A stretch of DNA of 64,000 nucleotides from Cephaloticoccus primus. GTDB taxonomy: Bacteria > Verrucomicrobiota > Verrucomicrobiia > Opitutales > Opitutaceae. The DNA lies in the NCBI RefSeq assembly GCF_001580015.1, contig NZ_LSZQ01000030.1, positions 1 through 64,000 of the forward strand, in the 5' to 3' direction. Below the pieces are notes generated by a model. It did not search any database. It saw only the letters and a program-made list of their open reading frames with translations, and was not told the origin of the DNA. Of the stretch, positions 1,338 through 57,310 are shown piece by piece (the stretch's first letter is position 1; each line of letters begins with the position of its first letter). Made by a program: the position numbers and the translations under genes.

Positions 1338-1444
1338 GGGGAAAAAGGAGGGCCGAGCATCGGTTCGCCCCCCGCTTTGTCAATCCGCAGCTTCACGAGC
1401 GTATACCCGCAGCGCACGCCAACGAAAAGAGCCGGAAGACTCCC

Positions 1445-1765
1445 GCTACGCGCGGGGCGGTGGCGGGTCGCCACTCCCATTGAATTTGCGATTTTGCCCG
1501 TGCGCGTTTCGCGCCCGCCCTCCCGCCCAAAATCGCAAATTTACATGAACCTCTCCCGACCTTCGGTCGGACAGGAAGTTCACCCATTAACCAAAAACTT
1601 CGCCCCAATGGGTTTCCGCTTCATTCGCATTTGATGCCGCATTTCCTGTCGCAACGCGACAGGGGGGCAAATTTGGGAATCGTGCTTCGACGCACAGCGT
1701 CGAGGCCGATTCCCAAATTGAATGGCAGGGGACACCGTCCCCCGCCGCCCGCGTAGGGCCCCCCG
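1445..1765. repeat. Mosaic hairpin repeat, copy 1
   Basis: This copy lies between the parB 3' end and the secG 5' end. The modules in order are a GC-rich edge at 1450-1482, hairpin A at 1483-1541 (14-bp arms AATTTGCGATTTTG), a small hairpin CCGACC-TTC-GGTCGG at about 1556-1570, a core at 1601-1638 (CCAATGGGTTTCCGCTTC and on), hairpin B at about 1646-1664 (CCTGTCGC-AAC-GCGACAGG), hairpin C at 1670-1719 (arms AATTTGGGAATCG), and edge E (GGCAGGGGACACCGTCCCC) from about 1723. Every module recurs in other gaps of this window. No ORF within it looks real. It accounts for most of the 1338-1783 gap. Confidence 0.85.
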
Positions 1766-3648: not shown

Positions 3649-4280
3649 TCAGTTTTGCTCACCGCCTGTCGTGAGTTCGCCTAACGCGGAGGCCACCCTC
3701 CGGCGGCGACGGCGAAAAAACCCGAACCCAAGCCCGACCACCCCAAACGCCGCCCCATAAGTCGCAGGCTCGGGGACGGGCGGCGTAAATCTCTCCCCAA
3801 AGTAAACTGTATAGTAAGGGCCAACTTTTCCGTCGACTATCCTCGCTTTATATAGAAGCCCATCCAAGGGATTTCGTAAAATAATACGATCCGCCCCAGC
3901 CCCTATCTCCTTCACTCCCAGAAGAGCTAACTCACTAAAATTTTCTAATACCAAAAAGCTACTCGAACTTATAGAAAATTTCTCAAGGTAGATACGTCCC
4001 CCATACGTATTAGTATTGGAAAAATCCAAAATTCCCATAGTATCATCCCCAACAGTAATGCGATCAAAATGATGCCTATCCCCGCGATAGGGGGGGACAA
4101 GGTAATAATTATCTGAAGAATCAAACTCAACTATATAATTACGGTCACGAGTAACTTCTCGAATCACCGTCCCCCCTTGCACTGCGCATTCTCCGACAGG
4201 GGGGGGGGGATATACGCATGCGCGAGTGGCAAGAAGCAGAGAGAGCTAATACAGGGAATCAGTTTCTTATAGATCAGCAT
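3649..4280 (-). pseudogene. PEP-CTERM protein gene interrupted at a C11 tract
   Basis: The C-terminal part has an exosortase sorting signal: VPEPATYG, a hydrophobic stretch and RRRRRR. The tail of about 15 residues after the Arg cluster is unusual. The longest intact frame (3649-4182) starts with GTG and has no signal peptide. A good one, MLIYKKLIPCISSLCFLPLA followed by HAYIPPP, begins at the ATG at 4280 but is in another frame. The two frames meet at a run of 11 C (plus-strand G at 4199-4209). Twelve or nine C would join them into one protein of about 210 residues; with 11 the signal-peptide frame stops after about a dozen codons. The gene is much more AT-rich than its neighbours, which suggests recent acquisition. 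The break may be phase variation, decay or a sequencing error. Confidence 0.75.
4199..4209. repeat. Homopolymer G11 (C11 on the coding strand)
   Basis: An 11-base homopolymer lies just after the signal-peptide codons of the PEP-CTERM gene. Its length sets whether the signal peptide is in frame with the rest of the protein. It is the longest single-base run I noticed in the window. Confidence 0.9.
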
Positions 4281-5744: not shown

Positions 5745-6050
5745 CGGGCGCGGTCTTCGACCGTTTTATTTTGCGAGCCGCCCGTTGGCGGCTCGTCCGG
5801 TATCCCCTCCCAAATTTCGTACGCTGCCGCGTTGCGACAGGGCTGGAAGCATCAAATGCGAATGAAGTGGAAACCCATTTGGGCACGGCGAAAAAGTTTA
5901 CGGGTTAAACTCCCACCTGAGCTCCATTCAGGGATTTCATTCAACTGTGCGGCTTGTTCGTCGGGAGGAACGCCCGACAGCAAGCCGCACAGTAAATGGC
6001 AGGGGACACGGTCCCCCGCCCCACGCGCAGTGGGGGACTGCCACTATCCC
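5745..6050. repeat. Mosaic hairpin repeat, copy 2
   Basis: This copy lies in the gap between divergent acylphosphatase and the plus-strand gene at 6099. Modules: G at about 5752-5797 (TCTTCGACCGTTTTATTTTG, then inverted GAGCCGCC/GGCGGCTC); a damaged hairpin B (right arm GCGACAGG near 5834); the core on the opposite strand relative to copy 1 (AAATGCGAATGAAGTGGAAA, CCCATTTGGG); hairpin D at 5944-5993 (13-bp arms ACTGTGCGGCTTG / CAAGCCGCACAGT plus an inner GTCGGG stem); and edge E at about 5996-6035. Any promoters for the flanking genes must lie in or beside the repeat. Confidence 0.85.
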
Positions 6051-6954: not shown

Positions 6955-7345
6955 TTCCACTGCGCGTGCAGCGGTGGCCCTGCGCGGGCGGCGGCAGGCG
7001 GTGCCTGCACCCATTTACTGTGGCACTTGCTTGTCGGGCCTTCTGCCCGACAAGCAAGTGCCACAGTAGAAAGGCCCCGACCATTAATCGGTGATTCACC
7101 GGCAAATCGTTTTCTCTCGCCCAAATGGGCACGCGCTCCATTCGCATTTGAAGCTCCTGTCCCAGTCGCAACGCGACTGGGGGATGTCCCTTTAAATTTG
7201 CGATTTTGGGCGGGAGGGCGGGCGCAAAGCGCACGGGCAAAATCGCAAATTCAATGGAGGTGGCGACCCACCACCGCCCCACGCGCAGGGAAGTCTTCGA
7301 CTCGCTCATTTTGCGAGCCGCTCGTTGGGGCGCCGTTGGTCGCTA
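6955..7345. repeat. Mosaic hairpin repeat, copy 3
   Basis: This copy lies between two convergent genes. Modules: GC-rich edge at 6957-7012; hairpin D at 7017-7067, with perfect 23-bp arms (starting ACTGTGGCACTTGCTTG) and loop CTTCT; a small hairpin near 7077-7092; the core (CGCCCAAATGGGC then CATTCGCATTTGAAGC) at 7118-7155; hairpin B variant CCCAGTCGC-AAC-GCGACTGGG at 7161-7181; hairpin A at 7195-7251; edge E at about 7252-7290; and module G at about 7291-7335. The menD stop codon overlaps hairpin A, and the last menD codons lie in modules E and G. Confidence 0.88.
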
Positions 7346-43364: not shown

Positions 43365-43560
43365 GGGCGAAAGGATTAATCCTCTACCCAAAGAATCCGC
43401 CCAAACGGGATTTCGCCCTCGTTCGCGCTTTGGGGCTCCTCGCCTGTCGCGAAGCGACAGGGAGGCCAATTTGGGAATCGGCCCCGTCGCTACGCGGCGG
43501 AACACGATTCCCAAATTCAATGGCACGTGGCGCCACGCCACCGCCCCACGCGCAGTGGCA
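43365..43560. repeat. Mosaic hairpin repeat, copy 4 (short)
   Basis: This copy lies between the Wzc-like gene and lpxI. Modules: a small hairpin GGATTAATCC at 43373-43382; the core in the copy-1 orientation (CGCCCAAACGGGATTTCGCC) at about 43398; hairpin B at 43443-43461 (CCTGTCGC-GAA-GCGACAGG); hairpin C at 43468-43517 (arms AATTTGGGAATCG / CGATTCCCAAATT); and edge E (CCGCCCCACGCGCAGTGG). There is no D hairpin in this copy. Confidence 0.83.
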
Positions 43561-47915: not shown

Positions 47916-47929
47916 GGTTCTGGCACGGG

Positions 47930-48320
47930 CAGACTCCCACTCCGCGTGGGGCGGGGGACGGTGACCACTTCCACTCAATTTGGGAATCGGCCCCGCCGCT
48001 ACGCGGCGGAACACGATTCCCAAATTAGCCTCCCTGTCGCTTCGCGACAGGGTCTTCGACCCTTTTTATGGGCGCGCCCTTGTTGGGCCGCGTCCGGCTA
48101 GCGTTTATTCGTTAACTCCAAAAATTGCCCAAACGGGTTACCCATCGGTTCTCCGTCCAAACGGAGGTCGGGCCCCTTCTACTGTGCCGCTTGTGTGTCG
48201 GGCCTTCTGCCCGACACACAAGCGGCACAGTAAGTGGGTGCAGCATGCGCGCAGCGGCAACGACGCTGCGGCCAAATAAAAGAGCCCGAGGCTCCCGCCC
48301 CACGCGTAGGGCCGCCCTCC
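47930..48320. repeat. Mosaic hairpin repeat, copy 5
   Basis: This copy fills the gap between the small integrase-like gene and the convergent SnoaL-like gene. Modules: GC-rich edge at 47935-47975; hairpin C at 47977-48026 (arms AATTTGGGAATCG); hairpin B at 48033-48051 (CCTGTCGC-TTC-GCGACAGG); module G at about 48052-48100 (TCTTCGACCCTTTTTATG); the core with CGTTAACTCC and TTGCCCAAACGGGTTACCC; a hairpin CTCCGT/ACGGAG at about 48151-48166; hairpin D at 48181-48231 with perfect 23-bp arms (starting ACTGTGCCGCTTGTGTG) and loop CTTCT; and edge E at about 48290-48310. Confidence 0.88.
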
Positions 48321-50944: not shown

Positions 50945-51275
50945 GAAGGCCACTGCGCGTGGAGCGGTGGCGGGTCGCCACTTCCATTCAATTTGCGATT
51001 TTGCCCGTGCGCGGTGCGCCCGAACAAAATCGCAAATTTAAGGAACCTATCCCTGTCGCGTTGCGACAGGAGATGGAGCCAAAATTGCGGATGAGGCGCA
51101 TACCCATTTGGGCGCGCGAAAAAGTTGACGGGGTAAACTCCCGCCTGACCGAAGGTCAGGCTCATTCAACTGTGCGGCTTGTCTGTCGTGCGGAACGCAC
51201 GGCACGCAAGCCGCACAGTAAATGGCAGGGGACACCGTCCCCCGCCCCACGCGTAGTGGAGACTTCTACTCGTTT
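50945..51275. repeat. Mosaic hairpin repeat, copy 6
   Basis: This copy lies between the LEA14-like gene start and the sdhB end. Modules: GC-rich edge at 50950-50988; hairpin A at 50990-51038 (arms AATTTGCGATTTTG); hairpin B at 51052-51070 (CCTGTCGC-GTT-GCGACAGG); the core on the copy-2 strand (GATGAGGCGCATACCCATTT) near 51090; hairpin CCTGACC-GAA-GGTCAGG at 51144-51160; hairpin D at 51169-51219 (arms ACTGTGCGGCTTG, with a G-T wobble in the inner stem); and edge E at 51222-51260. Confidence 0.87.
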
Positions 51276-56879: not shown

Positions 56880-57310
56880 TCCTTTCCCACTGCGCGTGGG
56901 GCGGCGGGCCGTGCCCGCTCCCATTTACTGTGCGGCTTGCGGGTTGTCCCTTCCGCACAACCCGCAAGCCGCACAGTTGAATCAAATCCCTGACCAGAGG
57001 TCGGGCGGTCGTTGACCAACTTTATGGGGGCGGCCTCGTTGGGCCGTGCTAGAACTGCGTTTACCGGTTAACCAACAAAATCGCCCAAATGGGTTCCCGC
57101 TTCATTCGCGCACGGGCTGAAGCACCTGACGAGCCGCCAGCGAGCGGCTCGCAAAATGGAACGGTCGAATACCGTGTCGCGAAGCGACAGGGGGAAGCTC
57201 CTTAAATTTGCGATTTTGGGCGGGAGGGCGGGCGCAAAGCGCACGAGGCAAAATCGCAAATTAATGGATGTGGCGACACGCCACCGCCGCCCTGCGCGCG
57301 GTGGAAAAAA
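56880..57310. repeat. Mosaic hairpin repeat, copy 7
   Basis: This copy fills the gap between the PaaK-like and LysM genes. Modules: GC-rich edge at 56887-56922; hairpin D at 56927-56977 with 21-bp arms (starting ACTGTGCGGCTTGCGGG); a small hairpin CTGACC-AGA-GGTCGG at about 56991-57005; module G at about 57005-57050; the core (TTACCGGTTAACC, CGCCCAAATGGGTTCCCGCT) at 57061-57115; an inverted second module G at about 57127-57168; a damaged hairpin B at 57173-57191; hairpin A at 57205-57262; and edge E at 57264-57303. It is the largest copy. Confidence 0.87.

Follow-up and report, generated by a model that had tools for sequence, protein, structure and literature searches.

In a stretch of 64,000 nucleotides (the window), a gene on the minus strand carries a run of 11 C directly behind a signal peptide, and the rest of the gene, ending in a PEP-CTERM sorting signal, lies in another frame. 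We consider with good confidence that the gene encodes a phase-variable, exosortase-sorted surface protein and belongs to a genome-wide set. Since no sequencing reads were available, switching within cells was not shown, and both the exact C count at this locus and reversible length change in living cells remain unproven. In the mechanism we propose, slipped-strand mispairing during replication would lengthen or shorten a C-tract at the signal-peptide boundary. In one of the three length classes the signal peptide would be in frame with the mature part, allowing export and then exosortase sorting via the PEP-CTERM tail, and the other two would give a short secreted stub (OFF). Only the C count would matter, because C-tracts are read as proline in any frame. 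With many loci switching independently, the mix of surface proteins would differ from cell to cell. Reversible slippage in cells, the surface location and any benefit (escape from phage, grazer or host, or diversity of adhesion) are inferred.

Anatomy of the locus and dependence on the C count

The positions of the features are given in Table 1. The earlier note on this DNA had placed an 11-C tract directly behind a signal peptide starting at ATG 4280, and reading of the minus strand confirmed this. The signal peptide has a hydrophobic core and an AHA cleavage-like motif; it was judged by inspection and a hydrophobicity criterion, without a dedicated signal-peptide predictor, and on this basis the window protein has the N-terminal signal peptide required of an exosortase substrate. 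At the other end, the PEP motif, transmembrane stretch and basic tail required of a PEP-CTERM exosortase substrate are all present, with matches above the model cut-offs to PF07589 (Pfam; 23.4 bits, cut-off 20.7) and TIGR02595 (TIGRFAM/NCBIfam; 21.2, cut-off 16).

Table 1. Features of the tract-bearing gene (positions in the window)
Feature	Position	Strand	Basis or remark
Signal peptide MLIYKKLIPCISSLCFLPLAHAY	4212..4280	minus	Sequence read directly; ATG = 4280; 23 codons, then AT
C11 homopolymer, proposed slippage switch	4199..4209	minus	Encodes proline in all frames
TGA stop of the 38-aa OFF product (11 C, as assembled)	4164..4166	minus	Frame test and sequence
Reading frame of the mature part (182 aa), uninterrupted between tract and stop	3649..4197	minus	Frame requiring 9 or 12 C
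PEP-CTERM sorting signal: VPEP, transmembrane stretch and Arg-rich tail	3697..3777	minus	Model helix 144-169
G6 run 3' of the main tract	4171..4176	minus	Read directly; minor possible second slip site

The C count was varied in silico. The assembled 11 C gave a product of 38 aa, and 10 C and 13 C gave stubs of 44 and 45 aa, respectively. Products of 209 aa (9 C) and 210 aa (12 C) both carried the PEP-CTERM tail, with VPEPATYGAAFGVVGLGFGFFRRRRRR near the C-terminus. The earlier statements that the VPEP-bearing remainder lies in another frame, that one C gained or two lost restores the full protein, and that the product stops early at 11 C were thus all borne out. The tract had also been read as switching export on and off. 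The mature protein and its anchor are indeed frame-dependent, but the 38-aa stub retains the entire signal peptide, so that the switched part is the mature protein with its anchor and not the export signal.

Under a first-order Markov model, the expected number of runs of at least 11 C was 6e-5 for the gene region and 1e-2 for the whole window strand. The gene therefore has what is asked of a contingency locus at this level, namely a long 5' coding homopolymer, beyond chance, the length of which sets the frame. The gene was also said to be more AT-rich than its surroundings, which holds: the GC content is 48.5% in the mature frame vs 63.5% in the window. A promoter scan gave nothing above shuffles.

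Dispersed intergenic mosaics were observed elsewhere in the window (1443-1760, 5750-6040, 7010-7330, 43443-43560, 47928-48232, 50949-51260 and 56887-57288). Their modules are palindromic repeats of 50-110 nt, 60-98% alike and found in both orientations, and the same few modules are combined at each site; they look like a REP-type element family.

C-tracts in the own genome and in its relatives

The genome to which the window belongs (G000; 2.36 Mb, 72 contigs, 98.8% complete) holds 59 C-tracts of at least 9 C, including 7 flush with a contig edge. The tracts of this genome were classified by reading their listings, because genes truncated at a contig end escape the automatic criterion. N-termini of exported, mostly PEP-CTERM, proteins accounted for 18 of the 34 distinct tracts of at least 10 C that were examined and 15 of the 23 of at least 11 C. 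The PEP-CTERM tail of the window protein had 36 matches in the genome, and roughly one in three of the genes concerned has an N-terminal tract of at least 9 C.

Two layouts were distinguished. In class A, to which the window gene belongs, the tract lies directly behind the signal peptide; its start is 67-89 nt past the ATG at every one of the 24 measured loci (G000 and G007, a genome of the same genus, 2.1 Mb). Where measurable, class A mature frames are AT-rich (44-49% GC), so the AT-richness of the window gene is a property of its class. Class B tracts are found in the n-region, ahead of the hydrophobic core (e.g., M-x-I-R-N-Y-(P)n-S-R-C-K-L-T-T-Y...). The class B genes have 61-63% GC and mostly encode proteins of 1000+ aa (PATR/PEP-CTERM); passenger-type repeats (PF12951, PATR) were found in the one class B protein scanned, and the PEP-CTERM signal is present where the gene end falls on the contig.

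In G007, all 23 C-tracts of at least 10 C that were examined lie at N-termini of exported, mostly PEP-CTERM, proteins (from the counts there should be two more flush tracts, which were not found). By automatic scoring, 17 of 22 distinct entries fell into class A and 2 into class B; random positions passed the signal-peptide criterion of this scoring in about 5% (class A) and 4% (class B) of cases. A synteny test found no equivalent PEP-CTERM gene beside menA in G007. In the absence of a direct orthologue there, tract length could not be compared at the window locus itself.

Tract length was instead found to differ between homologous copies, a further property asked of contingency loci. Near-identical leaders in G007 carry 10, 11, 13, 14 and 18 C (MASLF), 11, 12 and 22 C (MLTAHTIR), 13 and 20 C (MSCRTF), and 17 and 21 C (MRNFRLLG). 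These lengths come from paralogues, not from the window locus, and several are from contig ends; as far as sequence alone can tell, they are as would be expected of unstable tracts. The phase-variable reading of the earlier note is thus supported, in that many paralogues show the combination of signal peptide, C-tract and intact PEP-CTERM frame, and the tract length varies among copies with near-identical leaders. Because it recurs genome-wide, neither a lone assembly error nor a decaying gene fits.

If ribosomes or RNA polymerase slipped on the C-tract in a programmed way, the DNA would stay unchanged and a constant fraction of full-length protein would be made, so that any assembled OFF length would still give some product. 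Long homopolymers can also provoke polymerase or ribosome slippage. Programmed slippage sites are, however, usually short and of fixed length, and the assembled tracts, which reach 37 C and differ in length among near-identical leaders, point to instability of the DNA; we regard this explanation as very improbable.

Eleven tract genes are complete (5 from G000, 4 from G007 and 2 from G153, a genome of another family of the order), and for each of them the long frame is open in one of the three length classes. As assembled, ten are OFF and one is ON (C40:37032). A bias toward OFF was considered (two thirds expected, P about 0.07), but the result is not clearly different from one third ON and no bias is claimed.

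Many tracts terminate contigs, the leader and mature halves being split between different contigs. Such breaks fit long or mixed-length tracts breaking short-read assembly. Tract lengths at contig ends are unreliable, and poly-C there can be an artefact; the argument is carried by the linkage of the tracts to signal peptides and PEP-CTERM frames and by the contig-internal tracts. Edge-touching tracts in G000 were seen only at contig 3' ends, never at starts, and in both poly-C and poly-G orientation.

These features raise the question of an assembly or base-calling error, in which case the cell would hold a fixed in-frame C count and the gene would always be on. Short-read assemblies do miscount long homopolymers, many tracts here are at contig ends, and poly-C artefacts were seen in other genomes. 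Miscounting nevertheless leaves unexplained why long C-tracts occur at one position in so many genes, and it does not account for their absence elsewhere in G007, where all examined tracts were at such genes. The C11 of the window gene, moreover, sits inside a contig of 124,600 bases. An error of this kind is, in our judgment, improbable, and length variation of the tract remains the preferred reading.

An exosortase gene in the same genome, as an exosortase substrate requires, was found at G000:C31:2738-3544 (PF09721, E 2.7e-38). G000 and G007 each have one exosortase gene and MutS. Loss of mismatch repair was rejected as the cause of the tracts, since MutS is present in both genomes.

Automatic scoring of the tracts of other genomes gave 3/15, 4/35, 4/33 and 4/33. 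G002, G003, G006 and G010 were rejected as support, their tracts being mostly not at signal peptides; G006 and G010 have messy poly-C/poly-G contig ends without signal peptides, often resembling artefacts. In G153, two PEP-CTERM genes have an n-region C11, among five tracts of at least 11 C, and both lie inside contig C1 (1.77 Mb). In G013 (single contig, 7.3 Mb), one of the tracts read, a C18, precedes a PEP-CTERM frame of 301 aa (L357, C1:7259600-7262600); it may lie upstream of the real start, in which case its effect could be on the promoter or 5' untranslated region. Within the genomes sampled, the arrangement is extreme in G000 and G007, and elsewhere in the order it occurs only rarely. 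C10-C15 tracts were also observed in homologous neighbourhoods of two species of genus g82, of another family of the order (L335 and L342 of G169, L362 of G155), with lengths of 14 vs 15, 14 vs 12, and 11 vs 10 between species; they are not linked to signal peptides.

The mature domain and the state of the window copy

The mature domains of class A can be aligned among themselves, and the C-terminal part of the window protein aligns with them. The window protein corresponds to about the last half of the domain (182 aa vs about 270-350 aa in most class A paralogues, the N-terminal half being missing). The structure of one paralogue (C49) was modelled with a pLDDT of 84 as all beta with a C-terminal helix. 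Structural alignment of this model with solved chains gave a Z of 16.4 to 7jvi, a gut-metagenome beta-helix, and of about 14 to the autotransporter passengers pertactin and UpaB; Foldseek by itself had no hit with an E below 0.001. The class A fold is thus predicted to be a beta-helix, a prediction resting on this single modelled paralogue, as the model of the window protein itself was of low confidence (pLDDT 62). A Pfam scan of the window protein and four tract-bearing relatives returned only PEP-CTERM, PATR and a weak G8 match, and the C-terminal autotransporter barrel (PF03797) asked of a Chlamydia-type Pmp was absent from it. The dN/dS was 0.21 for the pair of C49 (C11) and C32 (C27), a rough value given a dS of 1.75, and 0.6-1.1 for paralogue pairs within G007. 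The first value favours a maintained, switchable family, and the pairs near 1 speak against it.

Being shorter than most class A paralogues and without the N-terminal half, the window gene could be a remnant: the family would be phase-variable and this copy a decaying pseudogene locked off. The lack of a counterpart beside menA in G007 also favours this, as do further breaks in two relatives, one with a stop immediately behind the tract in the PEP frame (C61) and one with a second frame break (C41:70631), both of which look damaged beyond the switch. The window copy, however, keeps 182 codons open with a PEP-CTERM signal above the model cut-offs, an intact signal peptide, and the tract at the standard distance from the ATG. 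A remnant is therefore possible but unlikely, and a functional switchable gene is preferred.

A further, close G000 paralogue (L054, C44:17241-20309) has the leader MRFFRLLGVLYTVFLYTNLLLS and lacks a C-tract (LLLSAPSPLLGISSVN), its frame staying open over 387 aa; it is apparently a locked-ON relative of C49 and the MRNFRLLG genes.

Relation to known systems and meaning

The closest parallels combine parts of the arrangement. The Chlamydia PmpG family (PMC6740158), in a related superphylum, is likewise an expanded paralogous surface family with variable homopolymeric G/C tracts (e.g., polyC 13-24) and a mixture of in-frame and frameshifted copies; the Pmps are, however, autotransporters with a C-terminal barrel and frameshift tracts well inside the gene, whereas the present set is PEP-CTERM/exosortase with the tract at the signal peptide. 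In Neisseria meningitidis, coding-region poly-C tracts switch secreted or surface proteins (nalP, ausI and some nadA) ON and OFF by slipped-strand mispairing, with one third ON expected if random (PMC5472700), but few genes are involved, secretion is by the autotransporter route, and there is no exosortase repertoire with a shared tract position. In Akkermansia muciniphila, also of the Verrucomicrobiota, homopolymers longer than 8 bp occur in 17 genes and PEP-CTERM genes are enriched near invertons (PMC3048395, PMC11892184), but the homopolymers singled out lie in capsule genes (PMC3048395) and the PEP-CTERM switching suggested is by DNA inversion, not homopolymers (PMC11892184). With the PEP-CTERM/exosortase system as known (PF07589/TIGR02595, PF09721), the present set shares the signal on the window protein and its paralogues and the single exosortase gene of the genome. 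No description of PEP-CTERM genes gated by poly-C was found in the open-access literature (subscription papers were not covered). The mechanism is best classed as familiar (slipped-strand contingency loci), and the exosortase-sorted substrate system and the extent as unusual.

The nearest named records place the genome in the Opitutaceae, the best MetG matches being to a MAG labelled Opitutaceae (77%) and to one labelled Cephaloticoccus (73%). Cephaloticoccus are gut symbionts of turtle ants (PMC5840417), although no host has been established for the present genome. We lean, with some reserve, to the wider view that in this small-genome lineage of Opitutaceae about 20 exosortase-anchored beta-helix proteins switch independently as a phasome, with a long poly-C tract at the signal peptide gating each of them. 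This would allow very many surface states and be the first such PEP-CTERM repertoire described. Homopolymer phasomes are known mainly from pathogens, e.g., Neisseria, Campylobacter and Chlamydia. In the one proposed here, from an environmental or gut-associated family of Verrucomicrobiota, most or all of the longest C-tracts in entire genomes seem to belong to the phasome, and the switched proteins would be exosortase substrates, about whose function little is known. Such a phasome would also account for the repeated breaks of these assemblies at tract-bearing genes. Related metagenome assemblies probably contain more surface proteins of this kind than have been counted, with some misannotated as pseudogenes. 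Comparison of ON and OFF cells would offer a direct test of the role of PEP-CTERM proteins.
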